Source: Acidobacteriota bacterium
Lineage (GTDB): Bacteria; Acidobacteriota; Terriglobia; Terriglobales; Acidobacteriaceae
Reading direction: 5' to 3'
DNA: 64,000 nt
Assembly (NCBI GenBank): GCA_021806005.1
Contig: JAJZDM010000006.1
Span: 1 to 64,000, forward strand
Part shown: positions 48,606-58,640 of the stretch, one piece after another
How positions within the stretch are numbered: the first letter of the stretch is position 1
Layout: every line of letters begins with the position of its first letter
Translations under genes and position numbers: made by a program
The notes under the pieces: model-generated
Told to the model about the DNA's origin: nothing
The model's database searches: none
Seen by the model: only the letters and a program-made list of their open reading frames with translations

Positions 48606-50858
48606 TTACTGGACCTGAAGCGTGGTCTGCAGCGGAAGATCGGCCGATGAGTCTCCGGCCATGAGAACGATAGGTGTGGCCTCCACTTCGAGAGCCTGGG
48701 CGTGGTTGTCCCAGAAGGCCAGGCGCAGTGCGGGCAAGGGGATGTGGACGGTGTGGGTCTGGCCGGCCGCGACGCTGACGCGCTGGAAACCCTCCAGTTC
48801 CTCGCGAGGGCGATCGATGGATGAGTGCGGATAGTGAACGTAGAGTTGCACCACGGCATCTCCGGCTCGCTGGCCGGTGTTGGTCACATCGACGCTGGCA
48901 GTAATCTCGCCATCTTTGGCAAGGTGGGAAGAACTGGTGCGGAGGTTGGAGAATCGAAAGGCTGTGTAGCTGAGCCCGAAGCCGAAGGGGTAGAGCGGCT
49001 GCCCTTTGAAGTACATGTAGGTGTGGCCGTCGCGGATGTTGTAATCCATCAACGGCGGTAGCTGGCCGGCCGAGCTGGGCCAGGTCTCCACCAGATGCCC
49101 GCCGGGGTCTGCGTCGCCAAACAAAACCTTGGCCAGTGCGGTTCCTTCATCCTGAGAGCTTTGCGCCATGTGCAGAATGGCCGGCAGATTCGCCTGGCTC
49201 CAGTTGATGGCGAAGGGGAAGCTGGAGACCAGAATCTCAACCGTGCGCGGGTTTACGTCGAAGATCTGCTTGGCGATCTGCTCCTGGGCGAGGTTGATGC
49301 TCTCGCGGTCGCGTCCTTCACGCCCGTCGCTGGGTGTGGTGCAGGGCAGGGTGTTGCCGCCGTCGGGGGTGTTCACCCAGGCCTGGCCCTGGTCGCCGCA
49401 GGTCGGATCGTTGCCGACGACCACGATGGCGACGTCCGAGTGTCGCGCCGCCTGAACCGCAGCTATTTCATCCTGGGGCGAGTTGTAGGGCACGTAGTTG
49501 ATCTTGACGTAAGGGCCCACCTCGTCGCGAATACCCTCCAGCGGCGTTACGGCATAGGGTGGCGTACCGCCGTACCAGTCTCCGTGCACCACGTCGGCCA
49601 AGGGGCCGATCACCGCGATGGAGTGAATCTTGCTCTTATCCAGGGGAAGGAAGTTGTTCTGGTTCTTGAGCAGGACAACGGATTCGAGCGCCAGCCTTTG
49701 CGAGACCGAGCGATCGCGATCGGTATCCCAGGGCGAGGGCTGATCGCCAGTCTGGCGGATGGCGGTGTAAGGAACCATGCCCGGTGGATCCAGCAGGCCG
49801 AGCTTGATTTCGATGCGGAACTTGCTCCGCAGCGCCTGATCGATCTCGGACTCGGAGATCGAGCCTTGCTTCACCGCTGCGTGCATCGAGTCCTTGTAGT
49901 TATCCAGGAACTGATTGATGCCGGCCTTGAAGGAGGCAACCACCGCTGCATCCTGATTGGGGAAGAGATGGCGGGGGTCCACCAGCAGATGGATCGCGCC
50001 GCCATCGCTGGAGATCACATCCAGGCCCCACTGGTCGATGAGCAGAGAGCGCAGGATGGGGTTGATGGCCATCGGCGTGCCGTTCCAGGCGTTGTAGGAG
50101 GCCATCACGGCTTTGGCTCCGCCCTGCTGAAAGCCCATGCGGAAGGGAACCGAGTAGTACTCCCAGAAGAGGCGCTGGCCGAAGTTGGAGGAGGAACTGG
50201 TGCGGTAGTTTTCGTTCTCATTGGCCAGAAAGTGCTTCAGCAGGGCAGCGGCCTGCCAGTACTTCGGGTTATCGCCCTGCAGGCCGTGGATGAAGGCGGT
50301 CGCCATGGTTCCGTTGAAGAAGGGATCTTCGCCGTAGACCTCCTCGCTGCGTCCCCAGCGGGGATCGCGGTCGAGGTCAGCTTGCGGACCCCAGAGCATG
50401 AGGATCTGGCGGTGATATTTGGGAGTCTGGGTGATATAGCGAGCCTCATATCCCTCGACTGCGGCAGCCTGACGGACCAGATCTGGATCCCAGCTCTCGC
50501 CCATCCCTGGAGGCTGCGGAAACTGGGTGGTGGTGATGGGTTCACGGGTATAACTGGACTGGCGCTGCACAACGCCGTGGATCCCCTCAGAGCTGCCGAT
50601 GTTGGGCACGCCGAGGCGCGGAACGCCGGTCGAGGTGCCCAGGCAGTCAATCTTCTCATCCAGCGTCATGCGCGAGAGAAGGTCGTCGATGCGCTTCTCA
50701 GTCGGCAGCTTCGGGTCGTCGAAGGGATAGTGCTGCAACTGCCACTGCGAGACCTGCTGCGGAGGAGCGATGGGCTGCTTCTGGGCGGCGGCTCCAGCGG
50801 TGAAGGCAAGCTCTGAGCAGAGAGCCAGGAGGACGGGAAGTTTCAGCAAGTACGTCAC
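48606..50858 (-). CDS. Glycoside hydrolase family 3 beta-glucosidase/xylosidase, secreted
   Basis: GTG 50858 (VTYLLKLP) gives 750 aa with an N-terminal signal peptide. The GH3 N-domain shows DLDRDPRWGRSEEVYGEDPF and the nucleophile region WGLDVISSDGGAIHLLV. The C-domain includes IHSIAVIGPLADVVHGDWYGG and an unusually long loop with VVGNDPTCGDQGQAW. A fibronectin type III-like domain follows (residues about 640-740), as in many exo-acting GH3 enzymes. These hydrolyse terminal beta-glucose, xylose or arabinose. It is monocistronic, preceded by a promoter-palindrome overlap (50904-50930) and separated from the ABC genes by 521 nt. Confidence 0.92.
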   Translation of the reverse strand: MTYLLKLPVLLALCSELAFTAGAAAQKQPIAPPQQVSQWQLQHYPFDDPKLPTEKRIDDLLSRMTLDEKIDCLGTSTGVPRLGVPNIGSSEGIHGVVQRQSSYTREPITTTQFPQPPGMGESWDPDLVRQAAAVEGYEARYITQTPKYHRQILMLWGPQADLDRDPRWGRSEEVYGEDPFFNGTMATAFIHGLQGDNPKYWQAAALLKHFLANENENYRTSSSSNFGQRLFWEYYSVPFRMGFQQGGAKAVMASYNAWNGTPMAINPILRSLLIDQWGLDVISSDGGAIHLLVDPRHLFPNQDAAVVASFKAGINQFLDNYKDSMHAAVKQGSISESEIDQALRSKFRIEIKLGLLDPPGMVPYTAIRQTGDQPSPWDTDRDRSVSQRLALESVVLLKNQNNFLPLDKSKIHSIAVIGPLADVVHGDWYGGTPPYAVTPLEGIRDEVGPYVKINYVPYNSPQDEIAAVQAARHSDVAIVVVGNDPTCGDQGQAWVNTPDGGNTLPCTTPSDGREGRDRESINLAQEQIAKQIFDVNPRTVEILVSSFPFAINWSQANLPAILHMAQSSQDEGTALAKVLFGDADPGGHLVETWPSSAGQLPPLMDYNIRDGHTYMYFKGQPLYPFGFGLSYTAFRFSNLRTSSSHLAKDGEITASVDVTNTGQRAGDAVVQLYVHYPHSSIDRPREELEGFQRVSVAAGQTHTVHIPLPALRLAFWDNHAQALEVEATPIVLMAGDSSADLPLQTTLQVQ

Positions 50859-51379
50859 CTTTCTGATCCCGGGAGGCACGGTACACCAACGCGGCGGGAC
50901 GAGAAGATACGAGCGATTAAAGCGTATCAAATAACGGGATCGGAAGAGAGAGAGTTTCTTCGAATGGCCGGTTGCGGATCGGAGCTGGATCTGCCCCCAG
51001 TTCTGCCACGAACGATTGCGCCACCGCTGTCAGAATCAATCCCGGGCGCAGGTGGTCCGCTTCAGCAGCGCTGGCTGCCGTACCTCCGAGCGTCGCCTCT
51101 CTTGCGCAGATAGCTGGACGCGGAACGGCTATCGCCTTCGTGAGGGCCGGGCCGCCAAGCAAGCATCGCCACGCTCGCCATGCGCTCCTCCGCCGACTTC
51201 GATCATTCCAACTGCACTTTAAGGAACCGTTTCCGGACTCTTCGCGTAGTATGAAGTGCACTCGGGCTTTTGATTTCCCTGTAGCCGCTGCTTCCGCGGT
51301 ACGGCTGCCCTTTCATCGTCGCATCCTCACCATCGCGCCCTGCGCCTGTCTGCGCTCGGGCCGTTCAGGAGAATCTTCT
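50859..51379. other. 521-nt divergent region (GH3 / ABC-M1 pair)
   Basis: The region holds a minus-strand promoter candidate overlapping a palindrome and a GGAACCGTTTCC near-palindrome (51223-51234). The track ORF at 50972-52279 extends 136 codons upstream of the real ABC start; that part has no family character and ATG 51251 is the only other plausible start. Confidence 0.4.
50904..50930 (-). promoter_or_regulatory. Candidate GH3 promoter overlapped by an inverted repeat
   Basis: On the GH3 strand TTGATA and TATCTT lie 15 nt apart. The GATACG-11nt-CGTATC palindrome (50906-50928) overlaps both boxes, the arrangement expected for a repressor site. The spacer is two bases short of ideal. Confidence 0.3.
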
Positions 51380-52279
51380 GTGACGGATCACACGGACCCG
51401 CTAGAGCTACGCATTCATAATCTGACCAAAACCTACAAGAACGGTGTCAAGGCGCTCGACGGCGTGTCACTTGTCATTCCGCGCGGCCTCTACGGTCTGT
51501 TGGGGCCAAACGGTGCAGGGAAATCCACCCTGATGCGCACCATCGCCACGCTTCAGGAGCCCGACTCCGGCACGATCCGCTTCGGCTCCATCGACGTGCT
51601 GGCGCAGAAGGAAGAGGTTCGCAAGCTGCTCGGCTATCTGCCCCAGGATTTTGGCGTCTATCCGCGTGTCAGCGCCGAGGAGATGCTCGATCACCTGGCT
51701 TTGCTAAAAGGCGTCACCCATAGCAAAGAGCGTCGCGAGGTCGTCCATGCCATGCTCCATCGCGTCAACCTGTGGGACCATCGCCGCAAGGCGCTCACCG
51801 GATTCTCCGGCGGCATGCGCCAGCGCTTCGGCATCGCCCAGGCCCTGCTGGTGAACCCGCGCCTGCTGATTGTGGACGAGCCAACCGCCGGCCTCGATCC
51901 CGGCGAGCGAAATCGCTTCTACAACCTGCTGGCCGAAATCGGTGAAGATGTCGTCGTCATTCTTTCCACGCACATCGTTCAGGACGTGATGGAGTTGTGC
52001 CGCAACATGGCCATCATCCATCAGGGGCGGGTGCTCTTTGCCGGCTCGCCGGACGCCGCCGTGGCCGCCCTCGCCGACCGCGTCTGGGCGCGCAGTGTTG
52101 CCCGGGAGCAGGTCGAGGAATACCGATCCCGTATGGCCGTCATCTCGCACAAACTCGTCGCCGGCCAACCCCGGATTCATGTCCTCGCCGATGAGGCGCC
52201 AGAGCCGGACTTCTTCGCCGTTTCGCCCGATCTTGAAGACGTCTTTTTCGCCCATATCGCCGGTCTGGGCACCAACTAA
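51380..52279 (+). CDS. ABC transporter ATP-binding protein
   Basis: GTG 51380 with AGGAG eight bases upstream gives 299 aa. Motifs: Walker A LLGPNGAGKSTLMRTI, signature FSGGMRQRFGIAQALL, Walker B LLIVDEPTAGLDPGER, and the switch His in ILSTHIVQDVMELC. A C-terminal extension of about 75 residues (AALADRVWARSVAREQVEEYR) continues past the core. The partner permease gene begins 14 nt downstream. It is the ATPase of the ABC-2/M1 fusion. Its codons end in C more often than those of the adjacent gene clusters. Confidence 0.92.
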   Translation: MTDHTDPLELRIHNLTKTYKNGVKALDGVSLVIPRGLYGLLGPNGAGKSTLMRTIATLQEPDSGTIRFGSIDVLAQKEEVRKLLGYLPQDFGVYPRVSAEEMLDHLALLKGVTHSKERREVVHAMLHRVNLWDHRRKALTGFSGGMRQRFGIAQALLVNPRLLIVDEPTAGLDPGERNRFYNLLAEIGEDVVVILSTHIVQDVMELCRNMAIIHQGRVLFAGSPDAAVAALADRVWARSVAREQVEEYRSRMAVISHKLVAGQPRIHVLADEAPEPDFFAVSPDLEDVFFAHIAGLGTN

Positions 52280-52293
52280 CCCGAGGATCTCCT

Positions 52294-55200
52294 ATGCTGC
52301 GTTTCTTTGCCTTCGAGGTTCGCTACTGGCTGCGTTCGACGATGCTCTGGGTCTTCACCGCCATCGTTGCGTTGCTCGTCCTGCTCGCCCTTAGCACCGA
52401 TCAGGTTACGGTCGGCGGCGCCATCGGCAATACCTTGCGCAATGCGCCCTTCGTCGTCCAGCAGTTTTACTCCATCATGTGGTTCATCACGCTGCTGATG
52501 ACCGTGGCCTTTGTCAACTCCGCGGCCTCGCGCGAATTCGCCGCAAACATGCACCAGATCCTCTTTACCAAGCCGATCCGGCGCATGGACTTCCTGCTTG
52601 GCCGATTCTTCGGCGCCGTCGTGGTCTCCACCATCCCGATGCTGGGCATCAGCGTGGGCGCGCTACTGGCGCCATTGATGCCGTGGGCTGATCACGATCG
52701 CTTTGGACCTGTCTTCTGGGCCGCTCACGGCGTCAGCATCCTGCTCTTCGCACTGCCCAATACGCTCTTCATCGCGGCCATTCTCTTCACCATCGCCGTG
52801 CTCACGCGCTCGACGATCTTCTCCTTCATCGGCGGCATCCTGCTCATCGTTGCCGACGCTGTCGCCGGCGCATTCACCTCGGACATGCGCAATGAAAAGC
52901 TCGCTGCCATGCTCGATCCCTTTGGCAATGACGCCTTCAACTACGCCACCAAATACTGGACCGTGGCGCAACGCAACACCCACGTGCTCAGCCTTGACGG
53001 ACTGCTGCTGTGGAATCGCCTGCTCTGGATCGCCGTCGGTCTTGCCATCTTCGCCTTCGCCTGCTGGCGATTCCGCTTTGAAGAGCGCGCTGAGCGTGTT
53101 TCCAGGAAGAAAGCACCCGTAGCTGCGGAGAATCCTGCCGCACCCGCATCGCGCCCCGTCTTCAGCCTGCACTTCGGGGCCTCGGCGCGGGTGTCCCAAC
53201 TGCTCGCCTCTACACGTATCGAGATGCGCCGTTTGATGAAGACGGTCACCTTCATCGTGCTGACGCTGGCCGCGCTGCTGAACTGCGTGACGGCACTCAT
53301 CTTCAACGCCCGCTCCGGTTATGGATTGACCACCCGCCCGGTCACCTATTCGATGATCGACATCATCAGCGGAACACTGTACATGTTCCTGGTCGCCATG
53401 ATCACCTTCTTTGCCGGAGTTCTGGTCTGGGAGGAGCGCGATGCGCGCGTCGATGAGGTGCAGGACGCATTGCCAGTTCCGGAATGGCCGAGCTTCGTGG
53501 CCAAATTTTTCGCTCTGCTCGCTGCGATTGCCTCCATCCTCGCTCTGGTGCTTTGCGTTTCCGTCATCGTCCAGGCGTTCGACCACTACACGCGCTTTCA
53601 GATCGGCCTCTACGTGGACTCGCTGCTCTTTCACGTCATGGTCAGCTTTGCCTTCTTCACTGCGCTGGCCTTCTTCGTCCATGTGCTCTCGCCAAACAAA
53701 TACTTCGGTTACTTCGCCTTCATCGCTCTGCTGGTGGCCAACGCATTCATGTGGCGTCCGCTGCATGTCGCCTCAGGGATGCTGGAGTTCGGCTCGCTGC
53801 CCACGATGACCTACTCCGATTTCTTCGGCTTCGCGCCGTGGATCGTCTCCTGGCGTTGGTTTGCAGCCTACTGGGGATTCTTCTGCCTGCTGCTCTCCGT
53901 CGTCAGCGTACTGCTCTGGCAGCGCGGGCGCGACACGCGCTGGCGCGCGCGCCTGCACAACGTGCCGCAGCGCTTTCATGGCGTGGTGCGCACCGCTGGC
54001 TACCTCGGTCTCGCTGGCTTCCTGCTCACCGGTGCGTGGGTCTTCTACAACACCGAGATCCTGAACCACTTCGACAGTGAATACCAGGCTCAGCGTCGAC
54101 AGGCCGACTACGAAAAGAACTGGAAGAAGTACCAGAACCTGCCCCAGCCGCGTATCACCGACGTGCACTACAACGTGGCCATCTATCCGCACCATCGCAG
54201 ACTTGTCCTACACGCGGCTGAACAGATACAGAACGAAACTTCGGCGCCGATCACACAGGTCTGGTTTACAACCGATCGCAACTTCACCTCGCACATTACG
54301 CTGCCCGGTGCAAAGCTGGCCACCAACGACGCCGGAACCGGCTTCCGCATCTACAACCTGACGACGCCCATGCAGCCCGGCGAACAGCGTACACTCCAAC
54401 TCGACGTCGAAAGCCATCCGCAGGGCTTTGAAAACCAGACCACCATGACCGGCATCGCAGAGAACGGCACCTTTTTCAATAACACGATCCTGCCGCAGAT
54501 CGGCTATCAGGAGGACAACGAACTCACTGACCCGAATGTCCGCCATCGCTTCGGCCTGAAGGAGAAGGACCTCATGCCGAGGCTGGAGGTCAACTGCACC
54601 GCCGACTGCGGAAATACTTACATCTCGAACAACTCCGACTGGGTCAACGTCGATACCGTCATCAGCACCAACCGCAGCCAGACGGCCATCGCGCCCGGCT
54701 CCCTCATCCGCTCGTGGGTTCAGGACAATCGCAACTACTATGAGTACAAGCTGGATCACATTGCGCTTAACTTCTATTCTTTTCTCTCCGCCGACTACAC
54801 CGTTGCGCGCCGTACCTGGACTGCCCCCAACGGACAGAAAATCCTGATCGAGGTCTATTACCTGCGCGAGCAGCCGTGGAACGTGCCGCGCATGCTCAAC
54901 TCCATCCAGAGATCCTTTGCCTACTACACCGCCAACTTCGGACCGTACTACCAACGCGAGGCGCGAATCGTTGAGTTTCCGCGCGTAGCCAGCTTTGCTC
55001 AGGCCTTCCCTGGAACCATGCCCTACTCGGAGTCGATTGGCTTCATCGCCGACATTGAGAAGCCAGACGACATCGACATGGTCTTTTACGTCGTCGCGCA
55101 TGAGATGGCGCACCAGTGGTGGGCGCACCAGCTCATCGGCGCAAACATGGAAGGCGCAACGTCGCTCTCGGAGACACTCGCCCAGTACTCGGCGCTCATG

Positions 55201-55908
55201 GTCATGGAGAAGGAGTACGGCCAGAATGCGATGCGCAAATTCCTCCAGTACGAGATGGACGCCTATCTGCGCGCGCGCGGAACCGAACGGCTGAAGGAGC
55301 GGCCGCTCATGCGGGTCGAGGCCAGCCAGGGCTACATCCACTACCGCAAAGGCTCGGTCGTCATGTACTACCTGCGCGACATGATCGGCGAGGATCACGT
55401 CAACGCCGCATTGCGCCAGATCCTCGGCGAATTTGGCTACCACGGAGCGCCCTATCCCACCGCCTGGGCCTTGGTCAACGCGCTCTCCGCGCAGACTCCC
55501 GCGCAGTACCAGTACCTGATCCAGGACCTCTTCAAGGACATCACCATCTTCTCCAACCGCGCCCTCAGCGCCACCGCCGTCAAGCGACCCGATGGGAAAT
55601 ATGAGGTCACCGTCGTCATCCAGACGCATAAATACAAGGCCGACGCCAAGGGCAACGAGGTTGAAGTGCCGATGAATGACTGGATCGATGTCGGCGCACT
55701 GGCCGCGCCACCCAAAGGGTTCCACTACGGCGCCGTTCTCGCTCGTGAGCGCGTCCACATCGTGAGCGGAAATACCGGAGCGACCAACACCTACAGCTTC
55801 ATCACGGATACACTTCCGGACAGAGCCGGCGTCGATCCGCTCTTGTTGCTCATCGATCGCATCCCCGACGACAACCTCAAGAAAGTGGACCTTGTCTCGA
55901 AGAAATAA
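52294..55908 (+). CDS. ABC-2 permease fused to an M1-like metallopeptidase
   Basis: The 1,204-aa protein joins a membrane part (residues 1 to about 600, with about 12 predicted helices including GGILLIVADAVAGAF) to a large M1-type domain. The latter has the zinc motif HEMAH (residues 936-940) and a Glu further on in GATSLSETLAQ. I count 19 residues between HEMAH and that Glu, whereas classical M1 has 18. The exopeptidase GAMEN segment is absent (PGTMPYSES instead), while HYRKGSVVMYYLR provides the Tyr region. Similar fused proteins occur elsewhere, usually with an adjacent ABC ATPase. The peptidase may act on a periplasmic polypeptide moved or degraded by the transporter. Translation runs directly after the ATPase. 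Substrate unknown. Confidence 0.9.
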   Translation: MLRFFAFEVRYWLRSTMLWVFTAIVALLVLLALSTDQVTVGGAIGNTLRNAPFVVQQFYSIMWFITLLMTVAFVNSAASREFAANMHQILFTKPIRRMDFLLGRFFGAVVVSTIPMLGISVGALLAPLMPWADHDRFGPVFWAAHGVSILLFALPNTLFIAAILFTIAVLTRSTIFSFIGGILLIVADAVAGAFTSDMRNEKLAAMLDPFGNDAFNYATKYWTVAQRNTHVLSLDGLLLWNRLLWIAVGLAIFAFACWRFRFEERAERVSRKKAPVAAENPAAPASRPVFSLHFGASARVSQLLASTRIEMRRLMKTVTFIVLTLAALLNCVTALIFNARSGYGLTTRPVTYSMIDIISGTLYMFLVAMITFFAGVLVWEERDARVDEVQDALPVPEWPSFVAKFFALLAAIASILALVLCVSVIVQAFDHYTRFQIGLYVDSLLFHVMVSFAFFTALAFFVHVLSPNKYFGYFAFIALLVANAFMWRPLHVASGMLEFGSLPTMTYSDFFGFAPWIVSWRWFAAYWGFFCLLLSVVSVLLWQRGRDTRWRARLHNVPQRFHGVVRTAGYLGLAGFLLTGAWVFYNTEILNHFDSEYQAQRRQADYEKNWKKYQNLPQPRITDVHYNVAIYPHHRRLVLHAAEQIQNETSAPITQVWFTTDRNFTSHITLPGAKLATNDAGTGFRIYNLTTPMQPGEQRTLQLDVESHPQGFENQTTMTGIAENGTFFNNTILPQIGYQEDNELTDPNVRHRFGLKEKDLMPRLEVNCTADCGNTYISNNSDWVNVDTVISTNRSQTAIAPGSLIRSWVQDNRNYYEYKLDHIALNFYSFLSADYTVARRTWTAPNGQKILIEVYYLREQPWNVPRMLNSIQRSFAYYTANFGPYYQREARIVEFPRVASFAQAFPGTMPYSESIGFIADIEKPDDIDMVFYVVAHEMAHQWWAHQLIGANMEGATSLSETLAQYSALMVMEKEYGQNAMRKFLQYEMDAYLRARGTERLKERPLMRVEASQGYIHYRKGSVVMYYLRDMIGEDHVNAALRQILGEFGYHGAPYPTAWALVNALSAQTPAQYQYLIQDLFKDITIFSNRALSATAVKRPDGKYEVTVVIQTHKYKADAKGNEVEVPMNDWIDVGALAAPPKGFHYGAVLARERVHIVSGNTGATNTYSFITDTLPDRAGVDPLLLLIDRIPDDNLKKVDLVSKK

Positions 55909-56128: not shown

Positions 56129-58489
56129 CTATGGTTGTTTGCTCAGAGCGGCGGCCGGATCCCAGCCGTCGCTGCCGCGCAGCCAGTTTTCAGGGGCGAA
56201 CTGCGCGGCCTGGTCCGGGGTCAATTGATGCGAGTAAGGTTCCCGCCGGGAGGGGTTGGCGCCGGGTCCGGTGGAGTGAAACTCGGCATAGTAGGCTGTC
56301 TGGAGCGAATGGGTCTCTCCGGGATGCCACTCCATCCAGCCGGCGGGCATGATCTGCGGTCCCATCCAGGTGTTGAGGTAGACGACGCGGGCATAGGGCC
56401 GCCATGGTCGGCCCAGATAGACGTTGCTGACGCCGCGGTCGGCGGTCAGCTTGCAATCGTTGAAGACGTAGCCGGAGTCCTGGTCCGGAAACACACGGCT
56501 CTGTGCGGTGAGCATGCCCTCGGGGTGCTGATTGCTGTGAATCTCGCACTGGTTGAAGACCGCTTTGGCATCGCCGAAGATGAAGTCCACGTTGCCTTCG
56601 ATGTAGCAGTGGTTGAAGTACTGCCGCGCAGCGGGGCAGGAAGAGTCCTTGCACGAGGCCGTGCCCGCGTACAGCGTGTCCTGGTTGCCCAGCAGGCGGA
56701 CGTTGTCGAAGATCTCGCGGTCACCCCGCACCAGCAGCGCCACGGCCTGCGAGCCCTGGGGAAGCTCGGGGTGGGTGGCGTTGAAGTCATTCTGGAAGGT
56801 GATGTTCTGGGCTGTGAAGTCATCGGCCAGAATGTTGACGGTGGAGGAATGGCCGGTGCCGCCGGAGTCTCCAGCACTCTTGTTCGCTACCACCACCGTC
56901 CGGTCAGCCTGCGGGTACGGGCTGCGCAGAGTGATGTGGGGCTTTTTGACCGTAAGGACTTCGTGGTAGATTCCGGGAGCGACGGAGATCAGCCCACCCG
57001 TCTCAGGAACGGCATCGATCGCCTGCTGAATCGAGTAGAAGTCGCCGGTGCCGTCGGCGGCTACATAGAACGTGTGATCCACAGCAGGAGCCTGTTCGTC
57101 GAGGTGGGGCGCTGTTGAGGGGTCCGCAAACGGAACCAGGGCTGCGGAGCAGGAGAGCGGCTCAGCGGAGCCATTGCTGGCCACCGCGCCGGGCGCTGCG
57201 GTGATGCTCACGTCCTGGCCCTGAGGCAGCAGATTGCCACGCTGCGGCCCGATGGTGATGGCGGCGTCCAGCGCCTGAATGCGTGACTGGTCAAGCCCCA
57301 GTGCGGAGACGTTGTCCAACGTCAAACCCAGTGGGTACTGCGCATCCAGTCCGGAGAAGATGTAGTTTCCGGGAGTGAGGACCTCGACGTTGCGCAGGGT
57401 GATCTGCTGATAGATGGGCAGACGGTCGCCGGAGAAGTCCGTGTAATGCGGGGTGATCACGATGGGATTGGTTGCGTTGCGGATGCAGACGTTCTGGTAG
57501 GTGATCTGCTGCACCAGACCTCCGCGGCTGGGATCGGATTTGATGCGGATGCCATTCTGCGTATGGTCGATGGTGAGATTTTTAACCAGCATGTGGTTGA
57601 CCCCGCCGCTGGTGCCGCTGCCGATCGACATGCCATGGCCGGCGTAGAAGTGATTGTCCAGGATGGAGAGGTGAGAGGACGGGATGTCTCCGCCGGAGCC
57701 GACGGCCACCTCATCATCGCCATTCTGGATGTTGCAGTGCGCGATGGTGACGTTGGTGGAGGAACCGGGATCGATGCCGTCGGTGTTGCGGGCCGTGGCC
57801 GGAGTGTCGATGGTGACGCCCCAGGCCGTAAAGCCGTCGGCGTTGTGGGCGCTCACGTGACCTCCGGGAGCGTTGCGCAGAGTAATCCCATACAGGGTGA
57901 AGTTCTTAACCCCGTTGAGGATGATCAGGTGGGGTACCTTCTGATAGAGATCCAGGAGCTTTGCCCGCTGGGCCAACTGCCACCAGGTCACGCTCTCTCC
58001 CAGCAGCAGGGAGCCGCCACGGCCGTCGATGGCTCCCTGACCCATAATGCCGCTGTTGGCGATGCCGTTGCCGCTGATGAAGGGTTTGCAACCTTCTCCG
58101 TGCGGCCCCAGCACACCGCAACTGCCGGGCTCCAGGTCGTAGAGGTGGGGGTTACTGGATGCCGCCAGCAGCGTGCCCTTGTCAACCACCAGTGTGACCC
58201 CGGAGCGCAACGTGAGCGGGCCGGAGAGAAAGACCTGGCCGCTGGCGCTGGATTTGAGGACAACAGCCCGTCCCGCCGGGCAGTGGTCCATGGCCTGCTG
58301 GATGCGCGCGGTGTCCAGGTGGTCTTCAGCGTCGGCTGGCAGATGGCCGTCGCTGGCGGCCAGGTTGGCTTGAAGAACGGTGCAGGTCTGAGGGATCTGG
58401 GGCTCGGTGACGTGGCGCAGGTCCTGCGCGTGCAGCAGGGAGGCCAGAGAGAGAAGCAGCAGGGGATATGACGAGCGAAGGTTGTACAT
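56129..58489 (-). CDS. Secreted GH28 polygalacturonase fused to CE8 pectin methylesterase
   Basis: From ATG 58489 (MYNLRSSYPLLL) the 786-aa protein has a signal peptide, a GH28 right-handed beta-helix and a CE8 domain. The GH28 part shows RNTDGIDPGSS, QNGDDEVAVGS, YAGHGMSIGSGTSGG and IRIKSDPSRGG, all four canonical catalytic motifs. The CE8 part (from about residue 490) shows GSQAVALLVRGD, LGNQDTLYAG, VDFIFGDAKAVF (with the Asp nucleophile region) and YLGRPWRPYARVVYL. The enzyme would demethylate pectin and cleave it in the same chain. The order GH28-CE8 and the fusion make it unusual. A divergent promoter region separates it from the second GH28 gene. Confidence 0.92.
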   Translation of the reverse strand: MYNLRSSYPLLLLSLASLLHAQDLRHVTEPQIPQTCTVLQANLAASDGHLPADAEDHLDTARIQQAMDHCPAGRAVVLKSSASGQVFLSGPLTLRSGVTLVVDKGTLLAASSNPHLYDLEPGSCGVLGPHGEGCKPFISGNGIANSGIMGQGAIDGRGGSLLLGESVTWWQLAQRAKLLDLYQKVPHLIILNGVKNFTLYGITLRNAPGGHVSAHNADGFTAWGVTIDTPATARNTDGIDPGSSTNVTIAHCNIQNGDDEVAVGSGGDIPSSHLSILDNHFYAGHGMSIGSGTSGGVNHMLVKNLTIDHTQNGIRIKSDPSRGGLVQQITYQNVCIRNATNPIVITPHYTDFSGDRLPIYQQITLRNVEVLTPGNYIFSGLDAQYPLGLTLDNVSALGLDQSRIQALDAAITIGPQRGNLLPQGQDVSITAAPGAVASNGSAEPLSCSAALVPFADPSTAPHLDEQAPAVDHTFYVAADGTGDFYSIQQAIDAVPETGGLISVAPGIYHEVLTVKKPHITLRSPYPQADRTVVVANKSAGDSGGTGHSSTVNILADDFTAQNITFQNDFNATHPELPQGSQAVALLVRGDREIFDNVRLLGNQDTLYAGTASCKDSSCPAARQYFNHCYIEGNVDFIFGDAKAVFNQCEIHSNQHPEGMLTAQSRVFPDQDSGYVFNDCKLTADRGVSNVYLGRPWRPYARVVYLNTWMGPQIMPAGWMEWHPGETHSLQTAYYAEFHSTGPGANPSRREPYSHQLTPDQAAQFAPENWLRGSDGWDPAAALSKQP

Positions 58490-58640
58490 GGGCGAGCGCT
58501 GGACTCCTGTGGTGCGGTGGTGGGTGTACCGGGTGACGGCCCTGGCGATGGCCAGGCATAGGCAGCCGAGAGGATAGACCACCGACGCCATGCTATCTTT
58601 CCGCCGACGAATGGGTCAAGAGATCCGACGCGAGCCGAGA

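Follow-up and report, generated by a model that had tools for sequence, protein, structure and literature searches.

An ABC-2 permease/M1 peptidase fusion from an Acidobacteriota bacterium: a family-wide HExxH-X19-E zinc site, a missing GAMEN glutamate, and zinc-dead relatives beside TonB receptors

This report deals with a fusion of an ABC-2 permease and an M1-type zinc peptidase encoded in the window, i.e., the stretch of 64,000 nucleotides from an Acidobacteriota bacterium (contig JAJZDM010000006.1) that was analysed as a whole. Together with an ATP-binding cassette (ABC) ATPase, the fusion would make up a two-gene ABC-2 transport system that couples the transport of a peptide-like compound to its hydrolysis in the periplasm, a reading that we favour with modest confidence. 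The fusion is a member of a known, widespread kind, and the joining of an M1 domain to a permease is in itself not new. Of value here are the invariance of the X19 spacing in its zinc site, a corrected register for its exopeptidase motif, and, as the new element, a link of zinc-dead homologues with TonB-dependent receptors.

The fusion gene and its parts (coordinates of the window) are arranged as follows:

52294..55908, + strand: ABC-2 permease/M1 peptidase fusion gene, 1,204 amino acids (aa); single uninterrupted open reading frame (ORF), 92% identical orthologue, AlphaFold2 model
52294..53073, + strand: ABC-2 half 1, residues 1-260, six helices; PF12679, hydropathy peaks 1-6, model helices
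53179..53928, + strand: ABC-2 half 2, residues 296-545, six helices; PF12730, hydropathy peaks 7-12, model helices
53980..54060, + strand: 13th transmembrane helix, residues 563-589; positive-inside pattern, model helix 563-589
54151..54813, + strand: M1 domain I (N-terminal beta domain), residues 620-840; strands in both models, Foldseek matches to M1 aminopeptidases
54814..55539, + strand: M1 catalytic (thermolysin-like) domain, residues 841-1082; PF01433 at 868-1058, AlphaFold2 model, Foldseek
55540..55833, + strand: C-terminal beta domain (domain III-like), residues 1083-1180; past residue 1083 strands only, in both models

An earlier note on this DNA, made from the letters alone, had read the ORF as one chain with about 12 helices and an M1-like domain. 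The single chain and the M1 domain are borne out, as Peptidase_M1 (PF01433) scores 49.4 bits against a Pfam cut-off of 27.7. The permease part stands as well, with both ABC-2 membrane domains (PF12679 and PF12730) over their cut-offs, but the helix count does not: hydropathy averaged over 95 homologues gives 13 peaks, namely two sets of six and the single helix at 563-589. The fusion is no assembly artefact, since a 92% identical orthologue is found in another species of the same genus. In the 22 residues of the loop preceding helix 563-589 there are 6 Lys/Arg, and under the positive-inside rule such a loop would put the peptidase part on the outer side of the membrane, so that the M1 domain is predicted to be periplasmic. 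Structure prediction, which had been proposed as a check, gave confident models in which M1 domains I-III are seen, both for fusion residues 1-1200 (predicted local distance difference test, pLDDT, 90.8; predicted template modelling score, pTM, 0.89) and for the isolated peptidase part (pLDDT 90.1, pTM 0.89). With the latter model, Foldseek retrieves the M1 aminopeptidases PepN, IRAP, and ERAP1/2 at a template modelling (TM) score of ~0.6 over ~600-650 alignment columns. Helical domain IV is absent from the protein, as the catalytic domain is followed by the beta domain only and the chain ends at residue 1204.

The zinc site carries much of the argument for a working peptidase. Its residues were compared across the 95 aligned homologues:

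55099..55113, + strand: HEMAH zinc motif, residues 936-940; H936, E937, and H940 identical in 95/95
55171..55173, + strand: E960, third zinc ligand, X19 after HEMAH; Glu in 95/95, local model confidence 95-98
55342..55344, + strand: Y1017, equivalent of the catalytic Tyr of YxKG; Tyr in 95/95, aligned with the Tyr of YNKG in ERAP2

These five residues are thus invariant in every row. Part of the set was gathered by the pattern HQWW[AG]HQ, which favours intact sites, while in the set from the whole-protein search all 30 rows of the first alignment are likewise intact, save for the spacing of one of them (L018). The earlier count of HEMAH followed by a Glu 19 rather than 18 residues away was correct, E960 being the next matching Glu. 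Calling this spacing atypical was not: it is exactly 19 in 94 of the 95 homologues and is therefore a signature of the family and not a quirk of the window gene, atypical solely against the textbook M1 site and the rule within the fusion family. The sole exception, HExxH-X16-E, is found in L018 (1501-5109), a distant fusion that looks active and matches the Pfam M1 profile poorly. Realignment does not bring back the standard spacing either. Profile searches against solved structures (phmmer, hmmsearch) keep one extra residue between HExxH and Glu relative to ERAP2, and an hhalign alignment to the X18 M1 protein of the genome itself likewise needs one, at a low probability (8.9%); a standard X18 was rejected on these several alignments and on the 94 homologues. 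Apart from this X18 protein (L111:595-2364, G000:C77), no further M1 protein was found in the source genome; it is secreted-looking and 589 aa long, and its canonical HExxH-X18-E and GMEH motif offer an internal contrast to the X19 fusion.

With the ligands, the general base, and the Tyr all invariant, the conservation fits a working enzyme and not a pseudo-enzyme, and the window's branch looks catalytically competent. That the domain might be a pseudo-enzyme was foreseen in the earlier note. As a pseudo-peptidase it would bind the substrate and present it to the permease, X19 marking a dead site, and the wider family does contain such forms (REMGR in Zymomonas, HDAVA in Pseudoalteromonas, and fusions without HExxH in the Acidobacteriota genera g72 and g128). 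For the window protein itself we consider this very improbable, as the unbroken set of catalytic residues in its branch argues against it and the degenerate forms have lost their His ligands and Tyr together, which is expected if X19 is the active state.

In M1 aminopeptidases, the Glu of the GAMEN motif contacts and anchors the free N-terminus of the substrate. In the fusion, two neighbouring motifs come into question for this position:

54994..55008, + strand: FAQAF, residues 901-905, at the GAMEN position without its Glu; ungapped HMMER register to ERAP2
55012..55032, + strand: GTMPYSE, residues 907-913, edge-strand motif corresponding to ERAP2 GLITYRE; HMMER register, model strand 908-912, E913 in 93/95

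GAMEN had been reported as replaced by GTMPYSE. Its absence was confirmed (G[AGS]ME[NHS] occurs in 0/95 homologues), but the replacement was rejected: the region EFPRVASFAQAFPGTMPYSE aligns with a 20-residue stretch of ERAP2, ungapped between the conserved P896 and E913 (HMMER), so that GAMEN falls on FAQAF and GTMPYSE on GLITYRE. The GAMEN place reads FAQ[A/S]F in nearly all homologues, with Ala or Ser at the Glu position, and residues 901-912 are free of acidic residues in 92/95. Alignment by hhalign to the genome's own GMEHQ-type M1 protein gives a different register, at only 8.9% probability; in either register the position of the GAMEN Glu holds no acidic residue. The suggestion that the peptidase need not be an aminopeptidase gains indirect support from these alignments, given that the Glu contacting the N-terminus is missing family-wide while the zinc ligands, the catalytic Glu, and the Tyr are invariant. 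With this Glu missing, the cleavage preference is probably unlike that of a strict aminopeptidase.

The partner of the fusion is encoded directly upstream, with 14 bases between the two genes:

51380..52279, + strand: ABC ATPase, 299 aa; PF00005 with E=4e-31, start GTG at 51380 behind GGAG, by inspection

As is proper to an ABC-2 transporter, this same-operon ATPase has its Walker A (GPNGAGKST), signature (FSGGM), and Walker B (LLIVDEP) motifs, and its best NCBIfam similarity is to the DrrA/GldA type. A scan of species genomes yielded at least 590 related stretches, the best 80 of which were used for all counts of context and flanks. Across several phyla, 75 of these 80 loci have an ATPase homologue upstream of the fusion and in its orientation; the other five are truncated by contig ends, two of them still showing the last part of the ATPase. 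This agrees with the earlier statement that such fusions stand next to an ABC ATPase, a kind that has been described before (TC 3.A.1.145, PMC3924187). Besides the ATPase, the 80 loci share no constant neighbour, and no conserved regulator, precursor, or biosynthetic gene was found in them beside the active copies that would bear out the earlier suggestion of a transported peptide or signal being processed; LytTR and short-chain dehydrogenase/reductase (SDR) genes occur in a few loci only. Larger clusters of neighbouring ORFs do not count as shared neighbours, for they stem from the ATPase region itself, read on the opposite strand or out of frame. Some homologous ORFs have long N-terminal extensions, for which an ATPase fusion was rejected, the extensions being shadow frames that run over the ATPase gene.

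Critically speaking, the M1 domain could also be an ordinary periplasmic aminopeptidase that the fusion merely anchors, transport and cleavage being unrelated. The M1 fold of domains I-III and the invariant catalytic residues would suit this, as would the RefSeq-type name "M1 family aminopeptidase" given to homologues on plasmids. We nonetheless regard it as improbable, because the GAMEN Glu is missing family-wide, the fusion and its pairing with the ATPase are kept over very large distances, and the fusion is retained in relatives even after catalysis has been lost.

In the coupled transport-and-hydrolysis reading, the ATPase (51380-52279) would drive the single-chain permease, which holds both ABC-2 halves, while the 13th helix would tether an active, three-domain M1-type zinc peptidase at the periplasmic face. 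At the inner membrane, the permease would move a peptide-like compound or extract it, to be cut or cleared by the tethered peptidase on the periplasmic face. The chemistry would be that of a normal gluzincin, with zinc held by His, His, and Glu, a general-base Glu, and a catalytic Tyr, and with a cleavage preference probably shifted by the lack of the GAMEN glutamate. We infer the activity, its coupling to transport, and the nature of the substrate alike. As M1 folds bind peptides, and as a siderophore-type locus houses one of the dead sisters, a small peptide-like molecule would be the most economical substrate class. The degenerate relatives beside TonB receptors, together with the nonribosomal peptide synthetase (NRPS) module and FecCD-type uptake genes in Pseudoalteromonas, hint at the same class.

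These degenerate relatives were found by searching through the permease part and keep the architecture though catalysis is lost. On plasmid pZM39 of Zymomonas mobilis ZM4 (L142:7989-11105), a fusion of 1,038 aa (family profile E=1.4e-124) reads REMGR in place of HEMAH and has lost the YxKG Tyr. In Pseudoalteromonas piscicida and Pseudoalteromonas sp. NC201 (L146:8992-12327 and L148:8992-12327), an ORF of 1,112 codons (E=1.2e-153 for P. piscicida) has HDAVA at the HExxH place, with the zinc ligands and the catalytic Tyr lost. The third lineage comprises the genera g72 and g128 (L126, L127, L128, L129), where degenerate fusions occur in 9 of 297 Acidobacteriota genomes, their permease and domain I matching at E below 1e-66; none of the fusion genes read there has HExxH, and the loss of the site rests on colinearity and MAFFT because the catalytic region is too diverged for HMMER. 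One genome of this group (G206) holds two degenerate fusion genes in tandem (L126:115-3528 and L126:3419-6994), which share 62-66% identity with the form that genus g72 has in single copy. In a tree of the permease part, Zymomonas groups with Pseudoalteromonas (support 0.996) and g72/g128 form their own clade (1.0); the zinc site may have been lost once or twice.

In all three degenerate lineages examined, a TonB-dependent receptor adjoins the pair, in the following gene orders:

Zymomonas: AraC, TonB receptor, two ABC_membrane/ABC_tran proteins, ATPase, fusion
Pseudoalteromonas: NRPS protein of adenylation-peptidyl carrier protein-reductase (A-PCP-reductase) type, Peripla_BP_2, two FecCD, ATPase, ATPase, fusion, TonB receptor; in addition an AraC-type regulator
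Acidobacteriota (degenerate): TonB receptor, ATPase, fusion

By its NRPS and FecCD genes, the Pseudoalteromonas locus is of siderophore type. Around the active copies, a profile built from four receptors of the degenerate loci, which recovers each of them when held out, detects no TonB receptor in the 896 kb flanking the 80 loci, where flanks are incomplete and SusC-like receptors may escape it. For these reasons, and given the small sample, the contrast between dead and active copies is a lead and not a result. It bears on the view that the whole family handles metallophores in the export, recovery, or processing of siderophore-like peptides, the active branch hydrolysing and the inactive one binding. 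The receptors in three of three lineages, the Pseudoalteromonas NRPS and uptake genes, and the AraC and ABC_membrane/ABC_tran proteins of Zymomonas all favour this view, but the receptor-free flanks of the active loci and the carbohydrate enzymes next to the window pair speak against it, leaving it doubtful. It is also conceivable, though unlikely, that the fusions form a distinct M1-fold branch (X19, no GAMEN, ABC-2-fused) that cuts peptide-like natural products in the periplasm during transport, and that its dead sisters have come to serve metallophore uptake loci with TonB receptors as binding modules. The TonB link of the dead homologues makes the question of function testable, with Zymomonas and Pseudoalteromonas as hosts.

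The best 80 loci come from Bacteroidota, Planctomycetota, Xanthomonadaceae, Oxalobacteraceae, Acidobacteriota, Gemmatimonadota, Myxococcales, and others, Pseudomonadota thus being included. A clear fusion is present in about two dozen of the 297 Acidobacteriota genomes; within the taxonomic family from which the window comes, 31 of 200 genomes have one at E below 1e-60. Such a broad and patchy distribution, the plasmid-borne copies, and the lack of dedicated biosynthetic neighbours would also fit envelope detoxification, in which the permease would clear the membrane of antimicrobial peptides or misfolded small proteins for the peptidase to destroy; no resistance phenotype is known, and we rate this as quite improbable.

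Several copies deserve a word of their own. On plasmid pHsw1 of Hymenobacter swuensis (L144:2817-9567), the ATPase-fusion pair is directly preceded by genes for a histidine kinase and a LytTR regulator; LytTR-type genes are also seen near a few other Bacteroidota copies and possibly regulate the pair. On plasmid pR1a of Sphingomonas sp. R1 (L147:5989-9577), the fusion is annotated behind the ATPase as two coding sequences, a hypothetical protein and an M1 family aminopeptidase. In two genomes of one genus (L124:1959-5436 in G368 and L125:2966-4740 in G303), the fusion gene is broken near residue 692, in G303 beside a large upstream deletion. Changes in the M1 part of these broken genes are still biased to the third codon position (34, 20, and 146 by codon position), so either the decay looks recent or the assemblies are faulty.

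In the window, the ATPase-fusion pair is flanked by carbohydrate-active enzymes:

48606-50930, - strand: GH3 enzyme
56129-58591, - strand: polygalacturonase-pectinesterase double-domain protein (GH28 + PF01095), 820 aa
58864-60291, + strand: GH28 protein with a Tat-like N-terminus

A functional link to these pectin genes is not supported, because an 89% identical copy (L031) has only the ATPase-fusion block in common with the window, its flanks being different; the block would seem to be a self-contained module and the pectin-degradation neighbourhood is probably a coincidence. Some of these findings weigh against coupled transport and hydrolysis of a peptide. The pair is surrounded by pectin and beta-glycoside hydrolases and no neighbour points to a peptide substrate, and L031 does not share these flanks. 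A search for a conserved precursor peptide or small ORF near the genes, which is a weak test, found none. Finally, the survival of homologues that lack the zinc ligands implies that the domain can be of use without cutting.

Among known systems, the closest is TC 3.A.1.145.1, the Myxococcus xanthus protein Q1D520 described in 2013 as a chain of 1,200 aa with 13 transmembrane segments (TMSs), an N-terminal ABC-2 part, and a C-terminal M1 zinc aminopeptidase, and guessed to export an amino acid or derivative (PMC3924187). Going by this description, the chain of about 1,200 aa, the ABC-2 and C-terminal Peptidase_M1 parts, and the 13 TMSs are common to both, while the part of that account devoted to TC 3.A.1.145 is without zinc spacing, GAMEN, or degenerate relatives. 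A full-length Myxococcales homologue in our set (L109) has 1,189 aa and is 38% identical to the window protein. The earlier note was right that such fusions exist with their substrate uncharacterised, in that neither a characterised substrate nor a functional study was found in the literature searched, which largely excludes subscription journals and yielded PMC3924187 as the sole paper on the fusion. NosP, AplP, and EryP, which act in the maturation of ribosomally synthesized and post-translationally modified peptides (RiPPs), are M1 zinc peptidases acting on peptide natural products, as proposed here; NosP has both endo- and aminopeptidase activity but, unlike the fusion, stands alone as a protein and has retained GAMEN and X18 (PMC13039773).

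With the M1 aminopeptidases (PepN, ERAP1/2, IRAP; PF01433), the window protein shares the fold of domains I-III, the Pfam match, HExxH with a third Glu, and the catalytic Tyr of YxKG. It differs from them in having X19 for X18 family-wide, in lacking the Glu of the GxMEN motif that marks the strict aminopeptidases, in its fusion to a permease, and in the absence of helical domain IV, which closes the chamber in PepN and ERAP1. Peptidase and ABC exporter also share one chain in the peptidase-containing ABC transporters (C39-exporter fusions) and in permease-peptidase proteins of the SkfF type. C39 is a cytoplasmic cysteine peptidase on an exporter of the ABC-1 type, whereas the window combines an M1 zinc peptidase, predicted to be periplasmic, with an ABC-2 permease. 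The fusion family is common in several phyla, and its X19 signature, its missing aminopeptidase anchor, and its dead relatives in TonB/siderophore-type loci give a first handle on substrate and chemistry. If the compounds handled by the dead and the active branches are of one kind, the family would add another coupling of ABC transport to peptide cleavage beside the C39-exporter fusions.

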